A DNA stretch of 40,917 bases from Desulfobulbaceae bacterium (GTDB taxonomy: Bacteria; Desulfobacterota; Desulfobulbia; Desulfobulbales; Desulfobulbaceae), in contig JAMJFO010000027.1 of assembly GCA_023544645.1 (NCBI GenBank), positions 1 through 40,917 on the forward strand, given 5' to 3'. The translations under genes and the position numbers were made by a program. Below, piece by piece: positions 22,366 through 40,768 of the stretch. The notes beneath the pieces were generated by a model. The model saw nothing but the letters and a program-made list of their open reading frames with translations, was not told the DNA's origin and made no database searches. Position 1 is the stretch's first letter, and every line of letters begins with the position of its first letter.

Positions 22366-23304
22366 ATGAATAGACCCCTTTTTTTGAGAATAATTCCCTG
22401 GGCGGTGATCATCCTGTTCTGCATGCAGCCGGCGCAGGGCTGGGGGGGTGAGGTGGTGGTTGTCCAGAGCGCTGGGCTGGCGCCCTACAATGAGGCCCTG
22501 CGAGGTTTTGCACACACTTTGACAAAAGACGTGCCAACCAGCGGGCCAAAATCCATCCAGGCCCACACCACAACCTCTTATATCCTTTCCGAAGTTGAAA
22601 GCCCGGTCCAGCTTCGTCAAACCCTGAGCAGGCAGCGTCCCGATCTTCTTCTGGCCATCGGCAGCAGCAGCCTTTCACTGGTCAAGGATCTGGCCGATAT
22701 ACCGATACTCTATCTCATGGTCCCGTACCCTGAATTGGTGATCGAGTCGCAGGACAATATCACCGGAATAAATATGACCATTCCGCCCTCCAGGCAGTTG
22801 GAGGCCCTTGTTCGCGTCATGCCCCAAACAGGTACGGTGGGTCTGCTGTATGATCCGGAGCGGACCGGGGCGCTGGTCCAGGAGGCGCACCAATACGCGG
22901 CGCAGCAAAACATCTCCCTTCTTGCCCTGCCGGTGGAAAACAGCAGTGAAGTTCCCAGCAGGCTTGCCAGGCTGTCAGGCAGGGCCGACTGGTTATGGAT
23001 GCTGCCGGACCGCACGGTGCTTACCCCCCAGACTATTGATCATATTTTTTTGTTCTCCCTTGAAAACAGGATCCCCATTCTCACCTTTTCGGATAAATAT
23101 TTAGACATGGGGGCGGTGCTTTCGGTGTCCCTGGACTTTTTTGACATGGGAAAACAGGCGGGGGAGATGGCGCTGAAGGTCATGGGCAGTTCGGGGATTG
23201 CAGATATCCCTCCGCAACCGGCGCGCAACGTTATTGTAAATACCAATAAAAAGGCGGCACAGATGCTGGGTATTGTTCTTGAGAATCAGGACGGCCCTGA
23301 ATAA
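22366..23304 (+). CDS. Periplasmic ABC-type substrate-binding protein (PF04392-like)
   Basis: A 312-residue exported protein. After a signal peptide ending near PAQG-WGGEV, the two-lobed periplasmic fold is suggested by VVVVQSAGLAPYNEALRGF, RQRPDLLLAIGSSSLSLVKDLADIPILYLMV, TGTVGLLYDPERTGALVQEA and GAVLSVSLDFFDMGKQAGEMA, the pattern of the ABC_sub_bind (PF04392) family. There is no permease or ATPase gene beside it; instead a membrane histidine kinase begins 4 bp after its stop. It is therefore more likely a periplasmic ligand receptor for that kinase than part of a transporter. The TonB receptor is transcribed divergently. No ribosome site stands out. The ligand is unknown. Confidence 0.85.
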   Translation: MNRPLFLRIIPWAVIILFCMQPAQGWGGEVVVVQSAGLAPYNEALRGFAHTLTKDVPTSGPKSIQAHTTTSYILSEVESPVQLRQTLSRQRPDLLLAIGSSSLSLVKDLADIPILYLMVPYPELVIESQDNITGINMTIPPSRQLEALVRVMPQTGTVGLLYDPERTGALVQEAHQYAAQQNISLLALPVENSSEVPSRLARLSGRADWLWMLPDRTVLTPQTIDHIFLFSLENRIPILTFSDKYLDMGAVLSVSLDFFDMGKQAGEMALKVMGSSGIADIPPQPARNVIVNTNKKAAQMLGIVLENQDGPE

Positions 23305-23308
23305 CCGT

Positions 23309-25383: not shown

Positions 25384-25836
25384 TCAAACCTCATGCATGG
25401 AAACAAACTTCAACGCATGGGTTGTGCATTTGGTCACGCAGGCCGGCTTGAGTCCGGAATCAACGCGGTCCTTGCAATAGTCACATTTCACCGCCTTGTT
25501 CGCCTGGTGATCGTATTGAGGTATTCCCCAGGGACAGGCGCCGGCGCAGGCCATGCAGCCGATACAGGTCTCCATGTCCACAAAAACGATGCCGTCCTCT
25601 CTTTTCTGCATCGCGCCGGTCGGGCAGACCGGCACACAGAACGGATCTTCGCAATGGTAGCAGGACCGGAACTTGAATTCCGTCTTGGGGACGCCCCGGA
25701 CGGATTTCAGCGTCTCGTGGCTGATTTCGCAGAGAATCGGCCCCACCGGCAGTTCCTTGTTCACTTTGCAGTGTATCTCGCACCCGTGGCATCCAATGCA
25801 GCGTTTGCTGTTCAAATATAAGGTGTATTTGTTCAT
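25384..25836 (-). CDS. Four-cluster ferredoxin subunit (DmsB/HycB-like)
   Basis: A 150-residue iron-sulfur protein with sixteen cysteines in the classical order for four [4Fe-4S] clusters: CIGCHGCEIHC (13-23), CYHCEDPFCVPVC (59-71), CIGCMACAGAC (90-100) and CDYCKDR plus CVTKC at the end. It is the electron-transfer partner of the molybdopterin enzyme just upstream; the genes overlap by four bases (ATGA), so expression is coupled. It has no signal peptide and no membrane anchor, so the complex should be cytoplasmic or attach to an unlinked partner. Confidence 0.94.
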   Translation of the reverse strand: MNKYTLYLNSKRCIGCHGCEIHCKVNKELPVGPILCEISHETLKSVRGVPKTEFKFRSCYHCEDPFCVPVCPTGAMQKREDGIVFVDMETCIGCMACAGACPWGIPQYDHQANKAVKCDYCKDRVDSGLKPACVTKCTTHALKFVSMHEV

Positions 25837-27947
25837 AATTCGACTTTCCTCTGAGGGTTTTTGGAGCTTCGGCGAACGGTGACAAAGGTCTCGCAGAGGC
25901 AGAGGCCGCCTCCGGCGGTATCCATGTTCTGCAGTTGTCCCTTCATGAGTTTCTGGTCACTCATGCCGGCATGGTACGCCCTGGTCTGCAGAGGTATCTG
26001 GCGGCCGAAGCCATGCACAGTATATACCGCCTCGGGATGAATGAAATCCGTCACCCTGGCTTTCACCACACTTGTTGCCCCGTCCGAGGAAACATCGACC
26101 ATGTCCCCGTCGGAAACCCCCATCTTGCCGGCTGCTCTGCTGTTGATCCACAACGTGTTTTCCGGCATCATCTCATTGAGCAGCGGGTTGTTCACCGTAT
26201 GGCTGTGCGCATGGATGGGGGAGCGGCCGAAGACCAGACGGAACTGCCCCTTGGGCGGTTTTGCCGGGCTTTCGTATGGTTTCCATGACGGCAGCCCCCA
26301 TTCCGTCAGATTCTGGCTGATGAATTCAATCTTTCCGGAAGGAGTCTTGAATTTCCCATCCAGGTTGTCCCGGTCATACATGATCGGGGTGCCGGTCAGC
26401 TCGACAAAACCTTTTTCATCGAAGTCCTCCAGGGTGCGGCCGGTCGGCTCGAGCTGCCATTTCCAGAGTTCCTGCATGGTGCTGAAAGGAAAATATTCAT
26501 CCAGGCCGAGCCTGGTTGCAAGGCCGTGCAGTATGGAATAGAGGTCGATGGTATCGCTTTCCGGCTCCACGGCCTTATTGCGCTTGATCAGTCTCGGTTT
26601 CAATCCCTTCTGTATGGCGATCATGCTTTCGCGTTCAAGATAAGTGGCCTCAGGCAGGATGACATCGCTGTACCAGCCGAATTCACTGTAATGGGTGTCC
26701 ACGGAAACGATCAGCTCGCAGTTGTCCAGCGCTTCTTTTTGGGCGGCCGGATCGGGAAAACAGGAAAAAGGATCATGACGGACGCAGATGATCCCTTTGA
26801 CCGGGTAGGGCTGCTCGGTGGCCATTGCCTTGTAGAACAGGTGGAAGAGGCCGGGGCCCTTGTCAAACTGCTTGTATACCTCGCCAACGCCGTCAGCTCT
26901 CGGGGTTGTAATTTTGGGGGACAGATCGGCGATGCTTCGCGGTCCCTTGACCCCGCAGTCTCCCGGCCCCTTGGGAAAGAGAAGGCCTCCTTCCACTTCA
27001 ATGCTTCCCATGAGCGCGTTGAGCGCGTTTAACGCCCGGCTCGCATAGAACGAATCACTGTAGCGGGAAAGCATCCACCCGGGATGAAAGACCACCCTGG
27101 GCCGGTCCTCGATGAGCTGCTCCACCAGTTGATGAATTTTCTGGACCTTGATGCCGCATTCCCTGGCAGCCCAGTCCGCCGTATACTCCTTGACAAACTC
27201 GGCCATTTCGTCGAGGCCGGTGGTGTACCGCTCTACAAACTCCCGGTCATAGCCTCCGGCTTGTATTATCTCGTGGATGAGCGCCAGGGCCAGCGCATAA
27301 TCCGTTCCGGGCCTGACCTGGAAAAAATTGGTGGCCTTGATGCCCGTCAGGGTCTGGCGCACGTCAACATAGGTGAGTTTGCCTCCCTTGTCGATCATAT
27401 CCAGCACCTGGTTCACTTCGGCCGGACGGAGGGATGCCAGAATATTGCGTCCGAAGAGAACCAGGTGGTTGGCATTTTTGATGTCGTAAATAAAACCCTT
27501 GCGGCCCAGGCCGAACAGCGACTTGCTGGCGTGATGGACGTTCCTGCCGCAGGCGCTGTCATGGTTGGTGTAATTGGGAGAGCCCAGAGCATGGGTGAAC
27601 GCCTTGACAAGGTCCTGGAAAGGTCCTCCCCGGGAGGAGGCCATTACGGCTTCCGGACCGTATTTATCAATGATTGTTTTGAGTTTATCCGCCACATAGT
27701 CCAGGGCAAATTCCCAGCTCACTTTCTCCCATCGGCCGGCGCCGCGTCCGCCGCGGCGGATCATGGGCTGCAGGGGGCGCTCGCTGTCGGCGATCAGCGC
27801 CGGGCCTGCCGAGCCTTTGGCGCATAATGCGCCGTTGAGCAGGTGAGGATTGCCCTCTATCCATTTAACCCTGTTATCTTCAACCTCAATCCTGATGGGA
27901 CAGCGGACAGTGCACATGCCGCACATGCTCCAGACCGTTTTTCTCAT
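25833..27947 (-). CDS. Molybdopterin oxidoreductase, DMSO-reductase superfamily, no Tat signal
   Basis: A 704-residue catalytic subunit. The N-terminal 4Fe-4S motif is CGMCTVRC (Cys 9, 12, 16) with a distal Cys in GALCAKGSAGP; ASSRGGPF and the Mo-ligand region NHDSACGRNVHHAS point to cysteine ligation, as in thiosulfate/polysulfide reductases and formate dehydrogenases. The C-terminal molydop-binding domain has FGRSPIHAHSHTVNNPLL. There is no twin-arginine leader, so it is predicted cytoplasmic. ATG 27947 is preferred because AAGGAG lies 9 bases upstream; a longer frame reaches 27983. It forms an operon with the ferredoxin gene. No NrfD/PsrC-type membrane subunit is present. The substrate is undetermined; a sulfur-compound or aldehyde oxidoreductase is possible. 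Confidence 0.88.
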   Translation of the reverse strand: MRKTVWSMCGMCTVRCPIRIEVEDNRVKWIEGNPHLLNGALCAKGSAGPALIADSERPLQPMIRRGGRGAGRWEKVSWEFALDYVADKLKTIIDKYGPEAVMASSRGGPFQDLVKAFTHALGSPNYTNHDSACGRNVHHASKSLFGLGRKGFIYDIKNANHLVLFGRNILASLRPAEVNQVLDMIDKGGKLTYVDVRQTLTGIKATNFFQVRPGTDYALALALIHEIIQAGGYDREFVERYTTGLDEMAEFVKEYTADWAARECGIKVQKIHQLVEQLIEDRPRVVFHPGWMLSRYSDSFYASRALNALNALMGSIEVEGGLLFPKGPGDCGVKGPRSIADLSPKITTPRADGVGEVYKQFDKGPGLFHLFYKAMATEQPYPVKGIICVRHDPFSCFPDPAAQKEALDNCELIVSVDTHYSEFGWYSDVILPEATYLERESMIAIQKGLKPRLIKRNKAVEPESDTIDLYSILHGLATRLGLDEYFPFSTMQELWKWQLEPTGRTLEDFDEKGFVELTGTPIMYDRDNLDGKFKTPSGKIEFISQNLTEWGLPSWKPYESPAKPPKGQFRLVFGRSPIHAHSHTVNNPLLNEMMPENTLWINSRAAGKMGVSDGDMVDVSSDGATSVVKARVTDFIHPEAVYTVHGFGRQIPLQTRAYHAGMSDQKLMKGQLQNMDTAGGGLCLCETFVTVRRSSKNPQRKVEL

Positions 27948-28095
27948 TGTCGTTATCTCCTTGCAGGTCAGTGTGTCAGGCACCTGAATCCGTGACGGCT
28001 TCTAGGGCTTTGCATGTATACCTGGTTGTTTTGGCTTTTTATTGACATTTATAATTTATTTGTTGATTCACCCCGCCGCCCTTCGGGGGGGGAGA

Positions 28096-29223: not shown

Positions 29224-30897
29224 TTACCTCATGAACCACAGCAGCTGCGTGTAATTCATGAACACGATGATCAGAGCGCCGGCCAGCAGTCTTTTGAGAA
29301 AGATTTCCGGCAGATGTTTCTGGATCTTGGGGCCGACCATGCCACCCAGCATGGCTCCGGCTGCAATACAGACGGCCATGATCCAGTCAGGCTGGTACCC
29401 CATGAGGATGTACTTGGCAATACCTCCGGTGGATGTGGCAAATGTGCCGGCCAGGGCAATGGGTACGGCAAGGTACATGGGATAGCCCATGACGGTGGTC
29501 ATGAACGGCATGAACATGAAGCCGCCGCCCACCCCGAAAGATGCCGCTATCATCCCCATGAGAACACCGCTGAACAGCATGATCAGGGGTCTGGCCACAA
29601 AGGTCTCTCCCCAGAACCGCATGTCGAATTTGTTCAGGTTGAATTTGTCAAACTCCACTTTGCCCAGTTCGAGGGCCTTGCCGGATTCCTTGGCCTCTTT
29701 GACCGCGGCGTTGAATTTCTGGACGATGGCCTTCATTGCCTTTTTCTTTTCAATGGAAGAGGGCAGGCTTTCTATAAAGAGCTTAATGCCGATGACCAGA
29801 CAGATAATTCCAAGGTAGAATTTGTATGCTTTCAAGGGCAGATATTTTGCCGAAAAGGTCGGTCCAAGAAAAAAAGCGCCTATAACGATGCCTATGGCAA
29901 AGAAGATAGCCACGGGCCAGGCAAACCGTTTCTCCTTGAAGTAGTTCAACAGCCCGGTAATCGGGGAGCAGAGGGTGAGGAACAGGTTGGTCGGTTTGAT
30001 GGTATTGGCCGCGTTAACACCGATGGGACCCTTGGTGCCGAGGATGGTGACCTGGAAGGCTGCTGTAAACAGTCCTCCCGCGGCGCCCATGATGACAAAA
30101 AGCACGCCGATGAGAAAGGCGCCGACAAGAACAACCAGCGGATTCATGTAGATGCCGCCGGTCTTGAAGAAGAATCCGGATTTTTGAATAGTCGTGGTTC
30201 CCGCTTTCTCGCCATTGACATATACCGCCAGCGGGGTGTCCGGAGCAATGTGCTTGTAGGGGGTTATGGACACGGAGAATTTTCCCGTTGCCTTGTCGAG
30301 CTTGACGCTAACGTCCTTGTTCCAGCCCTCCTTGTTCGTATCAAAGTCTGAAACAATCATCCGGGTATTGCCGCCGCCGATGGGCGGTTCCTTGGCAATC
30401 GTGTTGATGCCGAATTTATCTTCATGGGTGAAGATAAGGAAGTTCCACTGCTCCTCGGAGGAAATCATACCGAGCATGGGCTTGACTGCATCCGGGATGT
30501 CGGCCCATCCCAGAATTTTGTTTACCCGCACGTCGTATTTAAATGGTGGAAAAGCAAAAATGCCCGAGGTTTGGCCCTTGGCCGAGACTTTCGGTTTTGC
30601 CAGGGTGTCCGGCGCGCTGGTGACGACATAGTAGGTCTGGGGAACACCGGTATCACCGAATTTTTTCTCCAGTTTCTCCCGCTCCTGTTCGCCAATGGCA
30701 TCCTCGGATTTGAACATGATTTCCGAACCGACCACCACATAGAGTTCCCGGCCCGGATCAATGCTTCCTTCAATGTTCAATGGGGTGCCCGCGGTAATGG
30801 AAGCAGGGATGTTGGCCTCCATGGCCCGGGCAGCGCCTGCTCCTGTCAGAACCAGGAAAAACAAGGCCAGAAACCATACCGTTTTTTTTCGTCTCAT
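29224..30897 (-). CDS. TauE/SafE (TSUP) family exporter with large N-terminal domain
   Basis: A 557-residue protein: signal peptide (VWFLALFFLVLTGAGAARA), about 205 residues of soluble, probably periplasmic, beta-rich domain (IPASITAGTPLNIEGSIDPG onward), then an eight-helix TSUP bundle. Both TSUP repeats are visible: GAAGGLFTAAFQVTILGTKGP with NAANTIKPTN, and ASFGVGGGFMFMPFMTTVMG with ALAGTFATSTGGIAKY. TSUP members export sulfite, sulfolactate and other sulfur or organic anions; the substrate here is unknown. A cytosolic coiled loop (KKKAMKAIVQKFNAAVKEAKE) lies between the repeats. ATG 30897 has AGGAGG seven bases upstream; a longer frame reaches 30930. First gene of an operon with the coiled-coil membrane protein and RR2, behind a sigma-54 promoter. 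Confidence 0.9.
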   Translation of the reverse strand: MRRKKTVWFLALFFLVLTGAGAARAMEANIPASITAGTPLNIEGSIDPGRELYVVVGSEIMFKSEDAIGEQEREKLEKKFGDTGVPQTYYVVTSAPDTLAKPKVSAKGQTSGIFAFPPFKYDVRVNKILGWADIPDAVKPMLGMISSEEQWNFLIFTHEDKFGINTIAKEPPIGGGNTRMIVSDFDTNKEGWNKDVSVKLDKATGKFSVSITPYKHIAPDTPLAVYVNGEKAGTTTIQKSGFFFKTGGIYMNPLVVLVGAFLIGVLFVIMGAAGGLFTAAFQVTILGTKGPIGVNAANTIKPTNLFLTLCSPITGLLNYFKEKRFAWPVAIFFAIGIVIGAFFLGPTFSAKYLPLKAYKFYLGIICLVIGIKLFIESLPSSIEKKKAMKAIVQKFNAAVKEAKESGKALELGKVEFDKFNLNKFDMRFWGETFVARPLIMLFSGVLMGMIAASFGVGGGFMFMPFMTTVMGYPMYLAVPIALAGTFATSTGGIAKYILMGYQPDWIMAVCIAAGAMLGGMVGPKIQKHLPEIFLKRLLAGALIIVFMNYTQLLWFMR

Positions 30898-31040
30898 ACT
30901 CTTCCTCCTCAGTGTAATTGAGAAAATCAAAATGATCTATTCCCCGGTCAGCGGTGATCTTTGGATCCACCACCATGTTGCAATGCCGCTTCATTTTAAG
31001 AGACAGACTGTCGGGCATATCTCCTGTCGTTTTCATATTA

Positions 31041-31057
31041 AGCAAGTTTAATGCCAG
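31041..31057 (-). promoter_or_regulatory. Sigma-54 promoter of the TSUP operon
   Basis: Minus-strand CTGGCATTAAACTTGCT carries GG and GC exactly 12 bp apart, with the TGGCA and TTGC cores of the RpoN consensus. Predicted transcript start is near 31030, 133 nt before the TSUP ATG. Its -24 element CTGGCAT is the same as in the peptide promoter at 20091-20107. Confidence 0.8.
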
Positions 31058-31186
31058 CCCATGTTTTTTCTCCGCCGCAGAGTATAATAGACTGAAAATA
31101 ACGTATTAATGGAGAGTTGTATTATTTACAGCGGAAGCATGGGGGGGAATTATTCCCAGGTGGACAGGCAAAAGTGCACCAATCAG

Positions 31187-31213
31187 GATGCCCTGCATCA
31201 AAAATGATGCATC
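31187..31213. promoter_or_regulatory. Candidate activator binding dyads
   Basis: Two adjacent dyads share the half-site GATGC: GATGC-CCT-GCATC and the palindrome GATGCATC, with centres about 16 bp apart and roughly 165-180 bp upstream of the predicted sigma-54 start. This is a usual arrangement for an NtrC-type activator. Confidence 0.4.
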
Positions 31214-31319
31214 TTTGCCGGGCTGGATCAATGACGCGGCTTCCGCCGTGCATCGTTATCGAGATGAAAAAGATTGGTGTTGTAAACAGGGAGGTGGAAA
31301 AAGGACAGCAGAAGGTGAA

Positions 31320-32786
31320 TTAAGTGGATGTTGTCCTGTAGTCGGCTGCTTCAAGGCCGTAACGCCTGAGCAGCCGTTGGAAGGACTGCCGACCGAGTCT
31401 GCTGGAGCGGGCGGCGGCGCTGACATTGCCTCCACTTTGCTGCAGGGCGTTGGTCAGATATTTCCGGGAGAAAATGTTCACCACTTCCTCTTTGGCGTTA
31501 TTATAGGAAAGGCTGTTGACCTCTGAAAGTATATCTTCACAGGGTGTTTCGGGCTGAAAAGTGTCTTTTAAATCAGCGATGGAGATGTTTTTGTCCGCGG
31601 CAAGGAGAACAGCGCGTTTGACAACGTTCTGCAGTTCCCGGACATTGCCTTTCCACCGGCGTCGTTCCAGGTGCTGCATGGCCGCCGGGGTAATCTTCAG
31701 GCCCGGTTTTCCGTATTCTTCTCCATACAACTGGAGAAAATGCCGGGCAAGAAGGGGAATATCCTCGGTCATATCGTTCAGGGAAGGCATGGTTACGGAA
31801 ACCACATTGAGCCGGTAGTAGAGGTCTTCGCGAAACAGGCCCCGGCGAATTTTTTCTTCCAGATCCTGATTGGTGGATGCCAGCACCCTGACATCCACTT
31901 TGATCGGCCTGGTATGGCCAAGCGGCATTATTTCCTTTTCCTGCAGGACCCGGAGGAGCTTGGTCTGCAGTTCGATGGGCAGGTCGCCGATTTCATCCAG
32001 TAGAATTGTTGAACCGTGGGCTTCAAGAAAGAGTCCTTTTTTCTTGCTGGTTGCCCCGGTAAAGGCTCCTTTGGCATAGCCGAACAGTTCGCTTTCCAGG
32101 ATATGCTCAGGCAGGGCCGGACAGTTGACCGCCACCATGGACTTGTCTGACCTGCCGCTCATCTGATGCAGTACCCTGGCGGCGAGTTCCTTGCCTGTTC
32201 CCGACTCGCCCCGGATGAGCACGGTGACGTCGGTATCAGCGATTTTGTCCATCAGTTCCAATGCCTGTCTCAGCTTGGGCGACTGCCCGATAAATTTCCG
32301 GGATGCGGACCGGGAATCAATTTTCTGCTGAAGGGTTTGGTTTTCATGAAGCAGTTTGATGCGCTCCAGGCAGCGCTGGAGGGTTAACACGAGGTGGTCG
32401 TTGTCAAAGGGCTTCTCGATAAAATCGTACGCCCCCTGTTTAAGCGCCTCAACTGCCATTTCAACCGTGCCGTAGCCGGTCATCATAATGACCGAGATTG
32501 ACGGATCCAGTTCTTTTACCTTGTTCAACAGGTCCAGCCCGCTCAGGCCCGGCATTTTTATATCCGTCACGATAATATCAGGGCGCCAGGTCTTAAACAG
32601 TTCCCAGGCAATTGCCCCTGATTCAGCCACCCTGATTTCACAATCACATTTGCGGCCGACCACAACGCGAAGCATGGCCAGCATATCCGTATCGTCGTCA
32701 ATAAGAATTACCCGGGGGAGCTCCTCCGGTCCGGCCAAAGGGGATGCCGGTCGGGATGCATCCATCGGCACATCTTGTATTGTCAT
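31320..32786 (-). CDS. Sigma-54-dependent response regulator (NtrC family)
   Basis: About 488 residues: receiver domain with phospho-acceptor Asp 75 (IIVTDIKMPGLSG) and Lys in FIEKPFDND; AAA+ sigma-54 interaction domain with Walker A GESGTGKE (193-200), the GAFTGA loop (240-245) that contacts sigma-54, and Walker B LLDEIGD (262-268); C-terminal Fis-type helix-turn-helix (GGNVSAAARSSRLGRQSFQRLLRRYG). All activation motifs are intact. ATG 32786 is preferred, although a GTG at 32837 is in frame. It is divergent from the SMP1-HK1-RR1 genes and directly upstream of the sigma-54 promoter of the TSUP operon, so HK1 is the likely kinase and that operon a likely target. Both links are inferred from position. 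Confidence 0.95.
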   Translation of the reverse strand: MTIQDVPMDASRPASPLAGPEELPRVILIDDDTDMLAMLRVVVGRKCDCEIRVAESGAIAWELFKTWRPDIIVTDIKMPGLSGLDLLNKVKELDPSISVIMMTGYGTVEMAVEALKQGAYDFIEKPFDNDHLVLTLQRCLERIKLLHENQTLQQKIDSRSASRKFIGQSPKLRQALELMDKIADTDVTVLIRGESGTGKELAARVLHQMSGRSDKSMVAVNCPALPEHILESELFGYAKGAFTGATSKKKGLFLEAHGSTILLDEIGDLPIELQTKLLRVLQEKEIMPLGHTRPIKVDVRVLASTNQDLEEKIRRGLFREDLYYRLNVVSVTMPSLNDMTEDIPLLARHFLQLYGEEYGKPGLKITPAAMQHLERRRWKGNVRELQNVVKRAVLLAADKNISIADLKDTFQPETPCEDILSEVNSLSYNNAKEEVVNIFSRKYLTNALQQSGGNVSAAARSSRLGRQSFQRLLRRYGLEAADYRTTST

Positions 32787-32913
32787 ATTTTTCCGGATAT
32801 TTTTTGATTGGGGGTGATTGATCCGAATTCTGGTCACCGTAATTATCGGTTGCCGGAAGTTCTCATATTGTATTGTTGTTGAATTTCAAACAAACAAATT
32901 GTAGCATAATATC

Positions 32914-33474
32914 ATGCTTACATGCAAGGCGGCTCCACAGTTGAGCAATATCAGCACCGTACAACATAATTCTCATTCTGGAATCTTCCTGTCCCGCGTC
33001 TTTTGTCTGCGTTCTTTTTTTCTGCTTTTGTGCTGGTTGACTGTTTTTCCCCAGGATGCCCGCGCCGTTCAGGTTCATGGATCTCCCGAGGGGCTGTATG
33101 TTCACCAGATGGCCCACCTGTTTTTTGCCGCTGCTCTTGTTTTTCTGCTTTTACTGATCCATTACCGCCCCATCGGCAAGGGAAAGGCATGGGGGTATTT
33201 CAAGCTGTCGCTTTTCTTTTTTCTTCTGTGGAACATTGACACCTTTGGTGTGCACTGGTTGACCCTTCGTCTGCCGGAAGGAGCGATCATCAGCCGGGGA
33301 TCACTGATGGAGCATCAACTCGCCGGTCCCTTGACTCTTGAACGACTTGCTTATTATTTCGGCAGGCTGGATCATCTTTTTTGTGTGCCGGGGATGTGGT
33401 TTCTTGTATTAAGCCTGCGTCACTTCTCGGTACAATCGGAAAAGCAGGAAAATTCCGCAGAAAATGCATCATGA
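32914..33474 (+). CDS. Small histidine-rich membrane protein SMP1
   Basis: A 186-residue membrane protein of no family I recognise. After a hydrophobic leader (FFLLLCWLTVFPQDARA) comes VQVHGSPEGLYVHQMAHLFF, then three further hydrophobic segments and, near the end, YYFGRLDHLFCVPGMWFLVL. The paralogue SMP2 (36609-37088) shares the spaced residues HGxPEGLYxHQxAHLF, KAWxxF and DHLxCxP. Conserved histidines at the membrane edge could bind metal, heme or quinone; this is speculation. The stop overlaps the HK1 start by four bases (ATGA), so it is coupled to the kinase. The start is uncertain: ATG 32914 lacks a ribosome site and a TTG at 32940 would also retain the leader. Confidence 0.85.
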   Translation: MLTCKAAPQLSNISTVQHNSHSGIFLSRVFCLRSFFLLLCWLTVFPQDARAVQVHGSPEGLYVHQMAHLFFAAALVFLLLLIHYRPIGKGKAWGYFKLSLFFFLLWNIDTFGVHWLTLRLPEGAIISRGSLMEHQLAGPLTLERLAYYFGRLDHLFCVPGMWFLVLSLRHFSVQSEKQENSAENAS

Positions 33475-35039
33475 TGGGCCTGCCTCTGTTTCCGGTATTT
33501 ATTGTTGATTTCTTCGGGTCGGCCCTGATGATCATTCTGTCGGTAACCGCATCTTTTCACGCCCGCCGCCTGGTCCGCCTCAATCCGAAAAATGTTCTCT
33601 GGACCTACCTTTTCTGGCTGTGCATGGCCCTGGTGGCGTTTGCCCTGTCCAGAAGCATCGGCCACATGCTCCGCTTTATTTTTATCCTGCTCGATTTTCC
33701 CCATGTATGGGAGACCCTTTCCCCGTACAGCGGGGGACTGAATACACTTGTATTCAGCAGTGTGGCCGTGCTGACGTTCTATTACTACAATGTCCAGGGG
33801 GTGATCCAACGGGTCCGGGATGATGCGAATTCGCTGGCCCGGGCCAACCGGCAGCTGGAAAAAGTCCATGCCGAGTTGCGCAACCTGAACACCACCCTTG
33901 AACAGAGGGTTGAAAACCGGACCCGGGAACTCAAGGTATCGGAACAGAAATTCCGCCACCTGTACGAAGGATCAAAGGATATGATCTTCTTTTGCGATGC
34001 CGGTGGACGGATCAACGGTATCAACAGCAGCGGCATTGAGATGCTGGGGTATGACAGGGAAGAAGAACTCATCGGCTGCCCCCTGCCGTCATTATTTGTT
34101 GATGAGGAAAAATGGGCAAAATATTACTGCAGGCTGGGCTCCCAGGGGCATGTCAGGGATTTTGAGGTTGAACTGCTGCGCCGGGACGGTTCTCATCTCT
34201 ATATGATGATCACCGCGACCGCCATTGTTGACGAAGCAAATAACATGCAGGGAAGCGAAGGTATTGCCAAAGACCTGACCCATTTTAAAATGATGACCGA
34301 TCAGCTTATCCAGTCGGAGAACCTGGCTTCGGTGGGGCAGCTGGCCGCGGGTGTCGCCCATGAAATAAACACTCCCCTGGGTATTATCCTCGGATATACC
34401 CAGCTTCTTGAGGAGGATTTCACCGACAGGCCGGAAGTTCTGGAAACGCTGCGGATCGTTGAAAAACAGACCAGGATCTGCAAGCGCATTGTGGCCGATC
34501 TCTTGAAATTTTCCCGGCATTCCCTGGAAGGGGACAAAAAATCCGTGGATATCAATCAATGCATTGAAGAGGTCCTGGCCATTGTTGAACATTCCCTGAA
34601 TATGGATTTTATTTATGTTCAGCGCTCCCTGGAAGAAGGGCTGCCGGATATTTATGCAGATCCGGAACGATTGAAGCAGGTCATGGTCAATTTTATCAAC
34701 AATGCCCATCATGCCATCGACAAGGAGGGAATCATCGGCATCTGGACACACTTTGATGCCCATTGCCGGGAATTGGAGATCATCATTGGTGATACCGGGC
34801 CCGGAATTCCCCCTGAAGTCATCAGCCGTATTTTTGACCCGTTTTTTACCACCAAGGGGGTCGGCAAGGGGACGGGACTCGGTTTGTCTGTTTCCTTTGG
34901 CATTATCAAGGACCATGGAGGGCATGTTGAAGTTTTTTCTCCGCCCCGTGACCCGGATATTGTTGCTGCCGGAATGCGCACGGCCTTTCATATCACCCTG
35001 CCGCTGCAACCTGAAATGTCCACGCCCAAGGATCAGTGA
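33471..35039 (+). CDS. Histidine kinase HK1 with four-helix membrane sensor and PAS
   Basis: A 522-residue sensor kinase. The first 125 residues hold about four membrane helices containing PVFIVDFFGSALMIILS, LVAFALSRSIGHMLRFIFIL and LSPYSGGLNTLVFSSVAVLT. A coiled coil (about 125-160), a PAS domain (QKFRHLYEGSKDMIFFCDAG onward), HisKA with His 297 in GVAHEINTPLGIILGYTQ and HATPase_c (IGDTGPGIP, GTGLGLSVSFGI) follow. The membrane part is shared with HK2 (35499-36596), including SRSxGH and LSPxSGxxNTL, and seems a distinct sensor type. It begins inside the SMP1 stop and ends inside the RR1 start, so the three form one coupled operon. Confidence 0.93.
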   Translation: MMGLPLFPVFIVDFFGSALMIILSVTASFHARRLVRLNPKNVLWTYLFWLCMALVAFALSRSIGHMLRFIFILLDFPHVWETLSPYSGGLNTLVFSSVAVLTFYYYNVQGVIQRVRDDANSLARANRQLEKVHAELRNLNTTLEQRVENRTRELKVSEQKFRHLYEGSKDMIFFCDAGGRINGINSSGIEMLGYDREEELIGCPLPSLFVDEEKWAKYYCRLGSQGHVRDFEVELLRRDGSHLYMMITATAIVDEANNMQGSEGIAKDLTHFKMMTDQLIQSENLASVGQLAAGVAHEINTPLGIILGYTQLLEEDFTDRPEVLETLRIVEKQTRICKRIVADLLKFSRHSLEGDKKSVDINQCIEEVLAIVEHSLNMDFIYVQRSLEEGLPDIYADPERLKQVMVNFINNAHHAIDKEGIIGIWTHFDAHCRELEIIIGDTGPGIPPEVISRIFDPFFTTKGVGKGTGLGLSVSFGIIKDHGGHVEVFSPPRDPDIVAAGMRTAFHITLPLQPEMSTPKDQ

Positions 35040-35404
35040 TGGCATCTATACTAGTCCTGGATGATGTCATAGACGCGGCTATTTTGGTCCAGCGGATACT
35101 TGAAAAAAAAGGCCATGCGGTCCATGTGTTTTCCGATGAAGACCTGGCCCTTTTTTTTGTAAGGGAAAACAGGGTTGACCTTGCCATTATCGACATGAAA
35201 CTTCGCAAGATGGAGGGGATTGAGGTTATGAGCGAAATGAAAAAACTGCGTCCTGAAATCCTGGTAATCCTGATGACCGGGTTCCCCACCAGGGAATCAG
35301 CCGCGAAGGCGATTAAGCTTGGCGCTTTTGCCTACAGTATTAAACCCCTTGACAAAGAGGAGCTGGAGAAAACGGTTGCCCGGGCTTTGGCTGACAACCT
35401 CTAA
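35039..35404 (+). CDS. Receiver-only response regulator (RR1)
   Basis: A 121-residue single receiver domain: ILVLDDVIDAAILVQRIL at the start, phospho-acceptor Asp 52 in AIIDMKLRKMEG, Thr in LMTGFPT and Lys in SIKPLDKEEL. The ATG overlaps the HK1 stop (TGATG), so it is coupled to that kinase and is its probable partner. It is paralogous to RR2 in the TSUP operon. There is no output domain; it may pass phosphate on or act by binding. Confidence 0.94.
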   Translation: MASILVLDDVIDAAILVQRILEKKGHAVHVFSDEDLALFFVRENRVDLAIIDMKLRKMEGIEVMSEMKKLRPEILVILMTGFPTRESAAKAIKLGAFAYSIKPLDKEELEKTVARALADNL

Positions 35405-35498
35405 CCGCTGTAAATGCCGGCAAAAGCGCGATGCGTGGCTGCTCTCCTCCGGGAGTATTTACCTGGTGATGGATTGTTCATGCCAAACCAGGGAGGTT

Positions 35499-36596
35499 TT
35501 ATTCCTGTCGCGAAAGTTCGCCTAGAAGAGGCGGTAGACGGATCAATATCAAGGTTCCTGTATTTTTGCTGCTGGAAAGGACAATGCTGCCGTTGTGCTC
35601 TTCAATGATCTGCTTGACATAGGGCAGGCCTATCCCTGTTGATCCCTCCCTGGTGGTGAAAAAAGGGTCAAAGATATGGTCCGCGATCTCCTGGGGGATG
35701 CCGGGCCCGTTGTCTTCAAATTTTGCAATGACTGTTCTTTCCCCGGCCTCGGTGACAACCTGTATGGTATCGCCGCTTGCGCATGATTCCAACCCATTGC
35801 GCAGAATATGCATGAACGCGATCTTGATGAGATGCCGGTTGCCCTGAAAGGTGAGGGGGGAGGGCGCCCGGTCCAGGATGATGATTATGCCTTTCCGGTC
35901 GGCCTCGTCCTGGACAATGGTGATAACATCCTCAACCAGAGCGCTCAGTTCCAGCGCCTCGAATTTGCCGGAGCTTTTCTTTTCCGGCTGATCAAGCATA
36001 TTGACCAGTGTTTCCAGTTTTTCCGATTGATCCACGATCTGTTTCAGCCGTTCTCTGTCAGGCGATTCTTCCGGCATATTTTTATCCATGCGCCGGGCAA
36101 GGCCGCCGATGATCATGGCCGGGTTTCTTATCTCATGGGCGAAGCGCAGCCCCATCTCCACCCGGGTCCTCTCAGAGACGATGGACTCGATATCCCTGTT
36201 CAATTCAAGCAGTTCCCGGCTGAACACGGTTATTTTATCCCTGTCCCTGGACATGCGGTTCATGATGGTCTCTATCTGGCGGAAATAAAGAGTGACAGCG
36301 CCGATCACCACAAATGTCAACGTGTTGATGGAGCCACTGACCGGTGACAGATGCCTCCAGGTGTCACTGTAACCTGAAAAATATAAACCATGTTTGATGA
36401 TATGACCCAGCGACCGGGAGATAGAGAAAGCGAAAATGGCAGCGCTGAGCCAGAGGAGATAGCTTGCCAGGGCATGCTCCGGCGCTTTACGGTTAATCCG
36501 CCTGGCTGTGCCGAGACACAGGCAGGATACAACGATCATGCCGAGGGAGCCGGAGAAATCAATGAACCATACCGGGGAGAGGGACCAGAGCGTCAT
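35499..36596 (-). CDS. Histidine kinase HK2 with four-helix membrane sensor, no PAS
   Basis: A 365-residue kinase paralogous to HK1 in its membrane part (PVWFIDFSGSLGMIVVS, FSISRSLGHIIKHGLYF, LSPVSGSINTLTF). Here the four helices pass straight into a coiled coil and HisKA with His 154 in LRFAHEIRNPAMIIGGLA, then HATPase_c (FEDNGPGIPQEI, GSTGIGLPYVKQII); no PAS is present. It follows SMP2 by 12 bp on the minus strand and has no response regulator of its own, converging instead on the RR1 gene. It may share RR1, RR2 or the sigma-54 regulator with HK1. Confidence 0.92.
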   Translation of the reverse strand: MTLWSLSPVWFIDFSGSLGMIVVSCLCLGTARRINRKAPEHALASYLLWLSAAIFAFSISRSLGHIIKHGLYFSGYSDTWRHLSPVSGSINTLTFVVIGAVTLYFRQIETIMNRMSRDRDKITVFSRELLELNRDIESIVSERTRVEMGLRFAHEIRNPAMIIGGLARRMDKNMPEESPDRERLKQIVDQSEKLETLVNMLDQPEKKSSGKFEALELSALVEDVITIVQDEADRKGIIIILDRAPSPLTFQGNRHLIKIAFMHILRNGLESCASGDTIQVVTEAGERTVIAKFEDNGPGIPQEIADHIFDPFFTTREGSTGIGLPYVKQIIEEHNGSIVLSSSKNTGTLILIRLPPLLGELSRQE

Positions 36597-36608
36597 GTCA
36601 GCCGTCCT

Positions 36609-37088
36609 TTATTGCGTACCGTTTTCGCTGAATTCGGACAGCAGTTTTTTCAGGCCGGCATAAAAAAACAACAGCGCCGGCAGACAGACGAGATGGTCCA
36701 TTTTGACAAAATAGAAGAGCACATCCCGCCACGACCCCACCTGAAGGAACGGCACGCTGTGCCCGGGCAGCGTCACAAATGATGACTCAGGAGTCATGAT
36801 CTCGGCCACATGGCCGATAAATGCCCATATACTCCACATCGCCAGGAGAAAGGCGCCCCCGGAAAATAAGCGCCAGGCCTTATATCTCTTGAGCTGTAAT
36901 CGACGGATATTCAACAGAAAAATGACCAGGGAGATGACCAGGAACAGATGGGCGCCCTGATGGGCATAAAGTCCTTCCGGTCCGCCATGGGTTTGCAGCG
37001 CGGATACGTTTGCGGGATTGCCGGCCTGGATCAGGAGCAGCACAAGAAAAGACACTGCAGCGGCGCCCGGTTTCACATTTTTTTTCAT
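36609..37088 (-). CDS. Small histidine-rich membrane protein SMP2
   Basis: A 159-residue paralogue of SMP1 with the same order: hydrophobic leader (AVSFLVLLLIQAG), LQTHGGPEGLYAHQGAHLFL, a basic loop with YKAWRLF, a tryptophan-rich helix (LLAMWSIWAFIGH), and DVLFYFVKMDHLVCLPALLFF. It precedes HK2 just as SMP1 precedes HK1, which indicates a conserved two-gene sensory unit. It lies 47 bp after the phosphatase-YkgJ gene in the same operon. A GGAGGG sequence lies 12 bases before the ATG. Confidence 0.87.
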   Translation of the reverse strand: MKKNVKPGAAAVSFLVLLLIQAGNPANVSALQTHGGPEGLYAHQGAHLFLVISLVIFLLNIRRLQLKRYKAWRLFSGGAFLLAMWSIWAFIGHVAEIMTPESSFVTLPGHSVPFLQVGSWRDVLFYFVKMDHLVCLPALLFFYAGLKKLLSEFSENGTQ

Positions 37089-37135: not shown

Positions 37136-38191
37136 TTACAGCGAAGCCAGATAGTAAAAATAGACCTGGACAAACCTGCCGGAAATTGTATCCGGACAGC
37201 TGAAATGCAGTTCCTCTTTTCCGGGGAATATCCCGGAGAGGGCAAAAAAGACGTTGCGGGAGATATTGGACAGGATATCCTCGACCAGGGAGGAATCAAC
37301 AACATCCTCGGGCAGGCCATCCAAGCGGCACCTGATGGGACGGTAATCATACAGGACACATTTGCCGTCCACATTCAACGGGCAGATGAGATCGCCGAGC
37401 ACATACAGGTCATCCATCTCGTTCTCCCGGCCCGCGGAGGCATTGTCGCGCACCAGCGCCCTGAACCGTTGGAAAACATGCGCAGCCCTGCTGATGGCTT
37501 CACGGCGTTCCGCGCTTTTCATGGTCGTGTTCATTTTGTTGGAAAGATACAGGGCTTCAATCAATTTGATACTGAAATGTCTTTTGCAGCAGGCGTCATC
37601 TTCCCCTCCGCACCGACCGGGACCGCTTTCGCTCCGGGCACCGCCGGCTATTTTTTCGTCGATATCCTGAACCAGGGCCTCATACTCGGCAAAAAAATCG
37701 GCCAGGTCAACGGTATTGCCGCTCTCCAGGGAAGGTTCTCGGATGGTTAACATGCCTGATTTTTTGCCGTATTTTTTCAACAGGCGCCACTGGGCATAGT
37801 TTGTCGGATTGGCACGGGTGTGCTTCAGTTTTTTGCCGGCAACCTTGAGTCCGAGACCCCGCCGGACCAGGTAGGCAGAGACAAAGGTCCCGGTCCGACC
37901 AACACCGTGCCGGCAGTGGACAAGCACCTTCTTTCCCAGGTATAAAGCCTCATCCAGCCATTCCAGGGCCTGTTCCATTTCTTCCATGTCAGGAGCGTTT
38001 TCATCCGGGATAGGCAGGAAATAGACTTCAAATCCTGTCTTCTCTTCAATTTCATGCAGATCGCAGAATTCGCCGCACAGATTAACAATGGCAGTGACGC
38101 CCTGCTCACGGATGGAATCGAGTTCAGCATAGGACATGGGAGCGTAGCCGACGGCAAGTGAGGAGGTGATCCAGGTGAGTTGATATGACAT
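37136..38191 (-). CDS. Dual-specificity phosphatase fused to YkgJ-type cysteine cluster domain
   Basis: A 351-residue fusion. Residues 1-150 form a dual-specificity/tyrosine phosphatase: SSLAVGYAPMSYAELDSIREQG, general-acid candidate Asp 63 in PIPDENAP and the P-loop VHCRHGVGRTG with nucleophile Cys 93 and Arg 99. Residues about 195-351 match the YkgJ (Fe-S/zinc-chelating) pattern: GRCGGEDDACCKRH, then ICPLNVDGKCVLYDYRPIRCRLDG. Both halves keep their key residues. The gene lies 21 bp after the PEP-synthase-like gene and before SMP2-HK2. The phosphatase substrate is unknown; the neighbouring PEP-synthase-like protein or HK2 pathway are candidates. Confidence 0.9.
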   Translation of the reverse strand: MSYQLTWITSSLAVGYAPMSYAELDSIREQGVTAIVNLCGEFCDLHEIEEKTGFEVYFLPIPDENAPDMEEMEQALEWLDEALYLGKKVLVHCRHGVGRTGTFVSAYLVRRGLGLKVAGKKLKHTRANPTNYAQWRLLKKYGKKSGMLTIREPSLESGNTVDLADFFAEYEALVQDIDEKIAGGARSESGPGRCGGEDDACCKRHFSIKLIEALYLSNKMNTTMKSAERREAISRAAHVFQRFRALVRDNASAGRENEMDDLYVLGDLICPLNVDGKCVLYDYRPIRCRLDGLPEDVVDSSLVEDILSNISRNVFFALSGIFPGKEELHFSCPDTISGRFVQVYFYYLASL

Positions 38192-38212: not shown

Positions 38213-40768
38213 TTAACTGCCTGCCGCGGAAAACATATATCTTCCCTGAAAAAAATCATCCACATACCGGTCAACCATTTCCCTGTCCCTGAGCACCATG
38301 TCCATGAGGCGGGTTGCCCCGAGCAGACGGCCGACCATGTCCAGCTTTTCCATTATACTTGTTTGATCGCGCCGCAGAAATTGCGCATCCAGAAGGTCGC
38401 CTCTGGTTTTCACTGAAAAACCAAGGCGCTTGAGGATGGCTGCCAGGAAAAGAAGCCGCAGCTCCTTTCCCCGGTAATCACCCCCGCCACCGGCAAAACG
38501 TACTAAAATATAATTGTCTTCGTCCCTTGGCCCGCACATGGAATCGAGCATGGTAAAATGATAGCCGAACCGCATGTTCAGATTGAGATATTCATCTGAA
38601 ATAACAGCGTAGCTGGCAAGAGCATCGGAACTGCTGCTTGCCACGCCTCCGGCCAGAGCTACGTTATCGTACGATTGCCAGTCAAAATGGGTATGTTGGG
38701 ACCAGTCAATGCCCGGATTGCTCATTCCCCGCCATAGTGCCTGAAAGGGAATAGAACGGATTTCATCCAGGGATACTTCTCTCCTGCCGCGCGCCGTGTC
38801 GGCCAGTCCTCTGCCGACGTCAAGGGCATAGACGGTCATGGTCACGGACGAGACTATTTTTCGGCTCCCCTCTATTCTTGACCCCCACTTGTCGCCGGTG
38901 GCAAACATTGCATGCATGGATTTTTCGTGGACAAAACGGATAATATCATGCAGCGAACGGCAGCCCTCCGGGGTGAAGTCCGGCGTCGCGGGGTCGACAA
39001 GATTGAGTGTGGCGATAAAGTCGAGCATGTATTTAAGTTTGCGAAAAAAAGGAGTTGCCGGCTCCTTCCGGTCTCCTGTTTTCTTCCGCAGGATTTCGGC
39101 TACCATTCCCTGATAAACGGTCCTGTCGGACGCGCTTATTGTGACCTCCTGGCCGGTTTTGAATCTTTCGGTGGCCGTGCCGGCATTGACAATGACCGGA
39201 AGTCCGTATTCCCGGGCCACCGAGGAAAAATGGCCGGCAATGCTCCCTCGGTCGGCAATAACCGCATGCAGGCGGTCAATCATTTTGGCATAACCAGGCA
39301 GGGTGTTGCGGGCAACGAGAATGGCGCCCGGAGGAACCGGGTCCAGCTGGTTCTCATTTTCCACAACAAAAACCCTGCCGGCAGCCGCGCCTGAAGATGC
39401 GCAATCTCCGCCCCGGAAAAGAACAGGGGCAACGATGTCGCTGCCGGGGGCAGGGGGCGCATGTTTTCCAGGCAGCTCTATTTTCAACGGCCTGGTCTGC
39501 AGGATGAAAAATCGTCCGTCACTGTCCATGCACCACTCAATATCCTGCGGTTCTCCGAAAAATGATTCCATCTCCATGGCAATGGTGGCAAGTTCCCGGG
39601 CTCCATCATCGTCAAGAGAAAGGACGTGGCGCCGTTCTTCCGGTACCGTTCGCTGCAGACCTTTGCCGCGGCCGTCACGAACCATTTCAGTGAATTTGTC
39701 GCCATACTGTCGATGGATGATGTCGTGCAGACCATTTTTGGCAACAGTCAGGATATCAGGGCTTATTTCGCCGCTGACCAAAGGCTCGCCCAACCCCCAG
39801 AGGGAATGTATTGTCAGTGTTCCTGCTGATACCCCTGCCGGGTCAGCCGTGTAGATGACCCCGCTGACCGCGGCATCCAGCATCTCGACAACCAGAACGG
39901 CCATCGGGGTCTCCGCATCGGAAAGACCGTTATGTATTCGATAATAAAGCGCTTTGGGCGAATATTTGCTCGCATACACTTTTTTAACGGCTTCAAGGAG
40001 ATGTTTTTTGCCGATATTCAATTCCGTTGCATATTGCCCGGCAAAAGACGTCTCCGAGTCTTCATGCGCTGCGCTGCTTCTCACGGCAACCCGCGCTGTT
40101 GTTCCTGATTCTTCCTCCAGGGAGGTGAATGATCCCATGATTGCTTTTTCGATGTGCGGGGGGATCTCGGCTGTGTTAACCAGCGAGACCATTTCGTCGG
40201 CAAGCTGGTGGAGTGATGCTGCCGAGGAAATATCAAGAAGGGCAAGGCAACGGTCAATTTCGGGCTGCAGATTGTTATGTTCAAGAAAAGAGGTAAATGC
40301 ATTGGTTGTTATGACAAATCCCCGGGGTACGGAAAGGCCGAGATGGTTGTGCATCAGGGCCAGATTAAAGGCCTTGTTGCCTGCCAGCGTTCTTTTTTCG
40401 ATCTGGAGGGAGGAAAGAGTAATTGTATAGGGCGGGGGAGGATTTTTTACCGGCGCATCAAAAATAAACCTGATATAGGCGTCTATCCTGGTAAAATAAT
40501 CACGCAGGCTGGTGTAGGCGCCCGGAGTCATTTTGAGGAGGCTGTCGATCATGGCGGAAACCGAATCGGACAGCTCCGCGTACCTGCTTTCAACTGCCTT
40601 TATATCTACTTTTTTGCGGCTGTAGTAAATTTCCTCAAGTTCGGCTAACAGTTCGTGGGATCGTTTGTCCTCCTCAAGGAGCTGCCGGAAGGAGGCATAG
40701 TTTTCCCGCAGAAACGTTCCCGGAGAAAAGAGTCTTTTTGACCAGTGCTTGAACAATTCGAGGGCCAA
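38213..40768 (-). CDS. PEP-synthase-like protein lacking the PEP-binding barrel
   Basis: An 851-residue protein. After a helical N-terminus of about 110 residues comes an ATP-grasp PEP/pyruvate-binding domain (LAGNKAFNLALMHNHLGLSVPRGFVITT; VAVRSSAAHEDSETSFAGQY; SGVIYTADPAG; DIEWCMDSDGRFFILQTRPL), then the swivelling phosphohistidine domain with His 513 in RGSIAGHFSSVAREYGLPVIV. The C-terminal TIM barrel of true PEP synthase/PPDK is missing; instead about 270 unrecognised residues contain YHFTMLDSMCG and GGGGDYRGKELRLLFLAAIL. It should form phosphohistidine from ATP but transfer it to something other than pyruvate, or use a new acceptor. The start is TTG with GGAG six bases upstream. It heads the operon ending in HK2. 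Confidence 0.88.
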   Translation of the reverse strand: MALELFKHWSKRLFSPGTFLRENYASFRQLLEEDKRSHELLAELEEIYYSRKKVDIKAVESRYAELSDSVSAMIDSLLKMTPGAYTSLRDYFTRIDAYIRFIFDAPVKNPPPPYTITLSSLQIEKRTLAGNKAFNLALMHNHLGLSVPRGFVITTNAFTSFLEHNNLQPEIDRCLALLDISSAASLHQLADEMVSLVNTAEIPPHIEKAIMGSFTSLEEESGTTARVAVRSSAAHEDSETSFAGQYATELNIGKKHLLEAVKKVYASKYSPKALYYRIHNGLSDAETPMAVLVVEMLDAAVSGVIYTADPAGVSAGTLTIHSLWGLGEPLVSGEISPDILTVAKNGLHDIIHRQYGDKFTEMVRDGRGKGLQRTVPEERRHVLSLDDDGARELATIAMEMESFFGEPQDIEWCMDSDGRFFILQTRPLKIELPGKHAPPAPGSDIVAPVLFRGGDCASSGAAAGRVFVVENENQLDPVPPGAILVARNTLPGYAKMIDRLHAVIADRGSIAGHFSSVAREYGLPVIVNAGTATERFKTGQEVTISASDRTVYQGMVAEILRKKTGDRKEPATPFFRKLKYMLDFIATLNLVDPATPDFTPEGCRSLHDIIRFVHEKSMHAMFATGDKWGSRIEGSRKIVSSVTMTVYALDVGRGLADTARGRREVSLDEIRSIPFQALWRGMSNPGIDWSQHTHFDWQSYDNVALAGGVASSSSDALASYAVISDEYLNLNMRFGYHFTMLDSMCGPRDEDNYILVRFAGGGGDYRGKELRLLFLAAILKRLGFSVKTRGDLLDAQFLRRDQTSIMEKLDMVGRLLGATRLMDMVLRDREMVDRYVDDFFQGRYMFSAAGS

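Follow-up and report, generated by a model that had tools for sequence, protein, structure and literature searches.

A histidine kinase sensor domain and its small histidine-rich partner protein in Desulfobulbaceae and relatives

Several described histidine kinases expose little outside the membrane. Intramembrane-sensing histidine kinases are described as having two membrane helices joined by a very short linker (PMC5083920). In SaePQ-SaeS and LiaF-LiaS, a kinase with little exposed outside the membrane is accompanied by a small membrane protein encoded in its own operon, such as SaeQ with 157 amino acids (aa) (PMC5083920). SaeQ has four predicted helices and is dispensable for activation. 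RegB, of the RegB/PrrB/ActS group, likewise senses at the membrane and lacks an extensive periplasmic domain; it has six helices and a GGXXNPF motif (PMC8191878). Here we analyse a contig of 40,917 nucleotides from a Desulfobulbaceae bacterium (JAMJFO010000027.1, assembly GCA_023544645.1), in the following called the window. Positions 32914-37088 hold two copies of a gene pair encoding a small membrane protein (SMP) and a histidine kinase (HK). The pair is probably a sensor by which sulfate reducers and their relatives respond to a metal or redox signal on the outer side of the inner membrane and control sulfur-metabolism genes.

By its domains and its linked response regulator, the kinase belongs to the two-component sensor histidine kinases. 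SMP-HK is not categorically new, because this kinase half is an ordinary two-component histidine kinase. The input half, which is SMP together with the sensor domain of the kinase, is a new variant of histidine kinase input. Literature searches, at the level of search results, returned no description of the pair. Compared by description only, SMP-HK seems to come closest in mode of action to kinases assisted by a further membrane protein, for example SaeS with SaePQ, and differs from them in helix count and polar site: its kinase module has three helices, its SMP carries an invariant set of His, Glu and Asp residues, and its pairing is exceptionless in our sample. The sensor shares the lack of a sizeable periplasmic domain with the intramembrane-sensing kinases and departs from them in having three helices. 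It has this architecture in common with RegB/PrrB/ActS, as well as a periplasmic Gly-x-x-Asn motif. In contrast to RegB, it has SGGLNTL or SGSINTL on three helices and an obligate partner. Membership in the RegB group was rejected, as the RegB model aligns with HK1 only over model positions 189-401 and with HK2 only over model positions 210-415, and hhalign gives a probability of 0.3%. The source genome has a separate RegB/PrrB-like kinase with GGPMNPF (L119, 1480-2889; 201.7 bits, cut-off 350). The kinase core is nearest to the NCBIfam models of AtoS and ZraS, below their cut-offs, and like AtoS/ZraS with AtoC/ZraR it has a sigma54 regulator adjacent; the N-terminal membrane domain is unrelated and the partner protein is additional.

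Pairing of the two genes

The genes of both window pairs and the receiver gene that follows HK1 are the following.

32914..33474, forward strand: SMP1, small histidine-rich membrane protein with a signal/anchor helix and three membrane helices (open reading frame, likeness to SMP2 with E 2.9e-19, alignment)
33471..35039, forward strand: HK1, three-helix membrane sensor domain, PAS, HisKA and HATPase_c
35036..35404, forward strand: single-domain response regulator receiver, its start overlapping the HK1 stop (Response_reg E 1.3e-21)
35499..36596, reverse strand: HK2, three-helix membrane sensor joined directly to HisKA and HATPase_c (sensor model)
36609..37088, reverse strand: SMP2, which pairs with HK2 and ends 12 bases before its start

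An earlier note, made from the letters of this DNA, had placed the four SMP and HK genes here and proposed that they are paralogous in both members. We find them at these places, and the likeness of SMP2 to SMP1 (30% identity) and of sensor to sensor (E 1.8e-22) is well beyond chance. The shared motifs it had listed are present in the translations: HGSPEGLYVHQMAHLF in SMP1 corresponds to HGGPEGLYAHQGAHLF in SMP2 and DHLFCVP to DHLVCLP, while HK1 and HK2 have SRSIGH and SRSLGH, and LSPYSGGLNTL and LSPVSGSINTL. The start of HK1 and the stop of SMP1 share four bases (ATGA). In the Pfam scan, HisKA and HATPase_c of HK1 both score above the cut-off and a PAS match is present. HK2, with 365 aa, has no PAS match; its HATPase_c is above the cut-off and its HisKA, at 25.0 bits, slightly below (26.9).

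Pairing was followed through two samples. A scan of genome contigs gave 108 SMP relatives, and locus counts rest on the best 80 of these 108, whose titles are mostly Desulfobulbaceae, Desulfobacterales, Syntrophobacteraceae and other 'Deltaproteobacteria'. The sensor follows SMP directly on the same strand in 79 of the 80 loci; the exception, L020, lies at a contig edge. In this count a partial sensor at L010 was scored as present and a second, weak sensor match at L085 (E 9e-3, other frame) was left out. Because the 80 loci had been picked by SMP likeness, the test was repeated, with separate searches for SMP and sensor, in 297 genomes from the phylum to which the window belongs. The sensor profile finds 74 places in 54 genomes; the SMP profile, with all rows kept, finds 74 places in the identical 54 genomes. 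Every one of the 74 sensors is immediately preceded by an SMP on its own strand, which bears out the proposal of the earlier note that the pair works as a unit, and neither an orphan sensor nor an orphan SMP occurs in the 297 genomes. Small proteins that occur without such a kinase had been named beforehand as a check on this proposal. Outside the phylum, sampling consisted of the contig pattern scan. No SMP-HK relatives were found on viral contigs or plasmids. Desulfobulbus rhabdoformis DSM 8777 (L055) and Desulfoferrobacter suflitae DRH4 (L025) are cultured strains with the pair.

The two genes are also closely coupled. An overlap with the SMP stop is possible for 72 of 78 kinases if the first possible start codon is used, and amounts to exactly four bases in 54. 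Distances between SMPs and distances between kinases correlate over 80 pairs with r 0.848, against a maximum of 0.099 over 1000 permutations, and shared species history contributes to this value. A joint function of SMP and HK is strongly supported. The kinase behind the sensor is less uniform. In 50 kinases (the three of the source genome and 47 of 71 listed kinases with at least 340 aa), HisKA is present in 50, HATPase_c in 49, a PAS_8 match in 33 and a receiver domain in 8 (E 0.001). Since PAS_8 and receiver content varies in this way, one input module feeds several kinase architectures.

Whether SMP2 or the HK2 sensor is the query, a search of the source genome gives three strong places, namely the two window pairs and a third pair, SMP3-HK3, on another contig (C69, L005 4391-7224). 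HK3 is a kinase of 780 aa whose translation, read by eye, finishes in a receiver-like stretch. A fourth SMP match (E 0.077) has internal stops and was treated as chance. The three pairs fall into separate clades, in the SMP tree and the kinase tree alike, which rules out a recent local duplication. The clades of SMP1 and SMP2 each hold relatives from other genomes in both trees, and the three copies group with largely the same relatives in the two trees. Because the copies group alike and pairing has no exception, we conclude that the SMP-HK pair was duplicated long ago as a unit.

Predicted shape and conserved residues

The AlphaFold2 model of SMP is confident (mean predicted local distance difference test, pLDDT, 89.6; predicted template modelling score, pTM, 0.72; 83 aligned sequences). 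It has a signal/anchor helix at 9-23 and further helices at 37-63, 70-98, 120-129 and 132-157. The sensor model is fair (mean pLDDT 83.5, pTM 0.65, 80 aligned sequences). The earlier note had described a four-helix membrane domain in the kinases; the model has three helices (7-37, 42-74 and 77-121), and hydropathy gives three hydrophobic segments in each of HK1, HK2 and HK3. Helices 42-74 and 77-121 almost touch in the model, with no sizeable periplasmic domain between them. Loops rich in Lys and Arg join helices 1 and 2 in SMP and kinase alike. As such loops mark the inside by the positive-inside rule, both N-termini should face the periplasm. The periplasmic half is then predicted to hold H34, E38, H43, H47, H93, D131 and H132 of SMP, and D13, R61, H65, W80, P85, G88 and N91 of the kinase.

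Neither protein part could be assigned to a described family, in agreement with the first reading of this DNA, which had recognised neither. SMP and the sensor part both stay below the cut-offs of all Pfam and NCBIfam models; the top Pfam matches of SMP have E 0.0039 to 0.15, all below cut-off, and NCBIfam gave none. At E 5 neither profile finds a PDB sequence, and Foldseek against the PDB finds no fold at E 0.001 for SMP or sensor. A match of the kinase membrane part to a characterised sensor, looked for as a check set in advance, was not found in these searches. The best VIA-align Z values for SMP and sensor, 8.4 and 10.3, are at the usual level for helical bundles. Weak or absent fold matches of this sort do not amount to a new fold. 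A chain of menaquinol:organohalide oxidoreductase (8q4h_C, Z 8.2) is one of many equal rows, among which no known sensor fold is prominent, although one may be present.

Ten residues are invariant among 83 selected SMPs. In the 74 pairs, H43, H47 and H93 behave as a block: they are kept in 72 and lost jointly in two (L136, 1062-1553, and L196), whose SMPs have Arg, Tyr and Gln at the three positions and whose kinases are retained. These two pairs are natural site-less controls. A second set of residues changes across the two proteins. H34 or E38 is altered in eight pairs, all from genomes of one family (f9), and the same eight are the only ones in which kinase R61 is changed to His, D13 is changed and N91 is Asp. 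The SMPs of this family have WFQWGTQGSYVHQ or similar where others have HGxPEGLYxHQ. In this family a His is missing from SMP where one is gained in the kinase; in L134 a His is offset by one place from the H34 column. A distant group (G021, G200 and G223) has a shortened SMP without the periplasmic loop and retains H34, E38, H43, H47, H93, D131 and H132. These patterns suggest two linked sites, a metal-like tri-histidine centre in SMP and an SMP-kinase contact. Of the heme-, metal- or quinone-linked signals that the earlier note had suggested as speculative, conservation and joint loss lean towards a metal site.

Neighbouring genes and sigma54-type promoters

Around the two pairs, the window contains the following features.

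31320..32837, reverse strand: sigma54-dependent response regulator, divergent from SMP1 (Sigma54_activat E 1.1e-68, Response_reg E 6.4e-29)
31041..31056, reverse strand: sigma54-type -24/-12 promoter-like site before the TauE gene, one mismatch to the consensus
29224..30930, reverse strand: TauE/SafE transporter with an N-terminal extension, the probable start being an ATG further in (TauE E 2.7e-31)
25833..27983, reverse strand: PhsA-like molybdoenzyme (NF012032 503.7 bits, cut-off 694; PDB 2vpw E 1.7e-105)
37136..38191, reverse strand: dual-specificity-phosphatase-like gene, in a probable operon with SMP2-HK2 (DSPc E 1.5e-13)
38213..40768, reverse strand: PEP-synthase-like gene with PPDK_N and PEP-utilizers domains, in the same probable operon (PPDK_N E 1.2e-85)

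Several of these families recur. The sigma54 response regulator family is found near 25 of the 80 loci and a lone receiver near 22; TauE/SafE transporters of several subfamilies, counted by similarity to the TauE of the window, lie near 26. The PhsA-like molybdoenzyme family is near 18 loci, and its Fe-S partner near 17. The window itself holds the sigma54 regulator, the receiver, the molybdoenzyme and TauE. For the molybdoenzyme, the likeness to PhsA/PsrA lies in 2vpw, labelled thiosulfate reductase, as best PDB match and in the NCBIfam PhsA score, which stays below its cut-off; 'PhsA-like' is used here as a descriptive label. No signal sequence was seen by eye at its N-terminus. The PhsA subfamily is present in 45 of the 54 genomes with SMP compared to 31 of the 243 others, with shared ancestry as a confounder, and 20 of its 50 genes in the SMP genomes lie within 15 kb of SMP. 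PhsAB without subunit C has been noted in a sulfur disproportionator (PMC9751629), and molybdopterin oxidoreductases have been proposed as markers of sulfur disproportionation (PMC12998232). SMP2-HK2 stands behind the PEP-synthase-like and then the phosphatase-like gene, and L010 and L011 have the same order. MoeA-type molybdopterin genes were seen beside SMP-HK at L018 (2180-4225) and L026 (3538-6098), one of them fused to a PBP_like domain.

Sigma54-type sites were counted as good if they agree with the -24/-12 consensus at 9 or more of 11 positions. The count was limited to genes with at least 90 free upstream bases, and comparison genes had at least 150 aa. Good sites precede 14 of 33 genes for TauE, PhsA and mp10, and 6 of 125 others (Fisher p 3.7e-7, relatedness uncorrected). 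They are present before 5 of 10 PhsA genes and all six mp10 genes; SMP genes themselves have them in 4 of 46 cases. Because of the enrichment before TauE, PhsA and mp10, an order from kinase to sigma54 regulator to TauE and PhsA is supported for many relatives of pair 1. The TauE site of the window reads TGGCATTAAACTTGCT and is followed by a ribosome-binding site and ATG; by the window count, this single site is not above chance. The sigma54 regulator is the likely output of HK1, TauE/SafE is a likely target of the system, and the molybdoenzyme is a possible one. In the sigma54 regulome paper of D. vulgaris, a term search finds TauE, sulfite, thiosulfate and molybdopterin absent (PMC4641369).

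Three further observations were made on the way. The mp10 family is a small membrane protein without Pfam match that opens TauE operons (L057, 3255-3701, and L035, L040, L048, L064 and L081). An imperfect inverted repeat of 25 nucleotides at 31167-31219, upstream of the TauE site, is a candidate regulator site. At 22366-25303, a gene for an ABC_sub_bind-type substrate-binding protein overlaps that of the PAS histidine kinase following it, perhaps another two-gene sensor.

Possible signals and mechanism

The explanation we favour, and to which we give an even chance, is an obligate two-protein sensor facing the periplasm, with a tri-histidine metal site on SMP, that drives sigma54-dependent sulfur and molybdoenzyme genes. 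SMP and HK, made from overlapping or adjoining genes, would be two subunits of this single membrane sensor. The site formed by H43 and H47 on the first membrane helix of SMP and H93 on the second most likely holds a metal ion, and D131 and H132 on the third may usually assist it. The N-terminal HGxPEG segment with H34 and E38 would lie against a polar pocket of the kinase made of D13, R61, H65, G88 and N91. A change at the site, whether uptake or loss of the metal, its oxidation or reduction, or the arrival of a ligand, would move SMP relative to the three-helix module and alter the coiled coil and the HisKA/HATPase core. This would change phosphate flow to the response regulator. For many relatives, and probably pair 1 too, that regulator is of the sigma54 type and would turn on the TauE/SafE and PhsA-like genes. 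The computed support for this explanation consists of obligate pairing, gene coupling, co-inheritance, conservation and co-loss, the kinase core, recurrent neighbours and sigma54-like promoters. From these we infer the physical complex, the metal, the interface pocket and the direction of control.

Several results weigh against this explanation. H132 is substituted in 9 of the 74 pairs, once together with the tri-histidine block and eight times alone. The co-switch in the eight f9 pairs and the tri-histidine loss in two pairs with identical substitutions may each go back to one event in evolution. For covariation, 143 of 153 pairs were kept after removal of ten near-identical ones. Mean-field coupling gives no same-side enrichment among the top 10 to 50 pairs and did not resolve inter-protein contacts; a marginal enrichment in the top 100 (49/83, p 0.049) and the few SMP-kinase pairs whose mutual information exceeded pairing shuffles were not used as evidence. 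The promoter signal comes mostly from mp10 and PhsA, with good sites before only 3 of 17 TauE first genes. The other 30 of the 50 PhsA-subfamily genes lie on contigs without SMP (24) or farther off (6). SMP-HK pairs also adjoin unrelated genes, such as MoeA at L018 and L026 and CLC-type or TrkA-type channels at L061 and L070, and no sigma54 regulator evidently belongs to pair 2. A broader statement, an as yet undescribed split-sensor class of Desulfobacterota-type bacteria in which a signal-binding metalloprotein and a histidine kinase are separate yet inseparable membrane proteins, form a common periplasmic site that spans both subunits and tune sigma54-dependent sulfur and molybdoenzyme genes, is put forward tentatively and falls somewhat short of an even chance.

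A quinone or heme redox sensor is unlikely. Here the His/Arg/Asn cluster at the periplasmic face would bind menaquinone/menaquinol or a b-type heme and report the redox state of the respiratory chain. The (S)Gxx(N)(T) motif of the sensor recalls the ubiquinone motif GGXXNPF of RegB (PMC8191878), several invariant His lie by the membrane face, and molybdoenzymes are among the neighbours. However, the sensor does not align with the RegB-like GGxxNPF kinase found elsewhere in this genome (0.3% probability in hhalign), and the RegB model covers the kinase core of HK1 only. A set of three His lost as a block would be more than a bis-His heme needs, and f9 has Asp for the motif Asn while its pairs stay intact.

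We consider it improbable that SMP acts without cofactor, stabilising or inhibiting the kinase like SaeQ or LiaF, with the membrane part of the kinase sensing alone and the polar residues locking the complex. There is precedent in SaePQ, which complexes with the membrane kinase SaeS and affects its phosphatase activity (PMC5083920), and the two pairs that have lost H43, H47 and H93 retain both genes. Against this stand the 72 pairs that keep the three His and the seven polar residues retained in the shortened SMPs of the distant group, which suggest more than packing. Least probable, with slight weight in our judgement, is an anion receptor in which a sulfur oxyanion of the periplasm (sulfite or thiosulfate) binds directly to the positive cluster, without metal, so that the system adjusts export and turnover: TauE/SafE and PhsA-like neighbours and the basic R61, H65 and K68 of the sensor and K129 of SMP fit it, but position 68 is Lys or Arg in just 54 of 74 pairs, invariant acidic E38 and D131 would suit an anion pocket poorly, and pairs adjoin MoeA, CLC/TrkA-type channels and other genes too.

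This sensor is present in about one in five sampled genomes of the phylum (54 of 297), and its neighbours are often genes for sulfur compounds or molybdoenzymes. It is a testable entry into environmental sensing by these bacteria. Should the two-protein site be real, SMP-HK would be a new two-polypeptide signal-input module for the commonest signalling family of bacteria, one for which natural site-less variants serve as controls.

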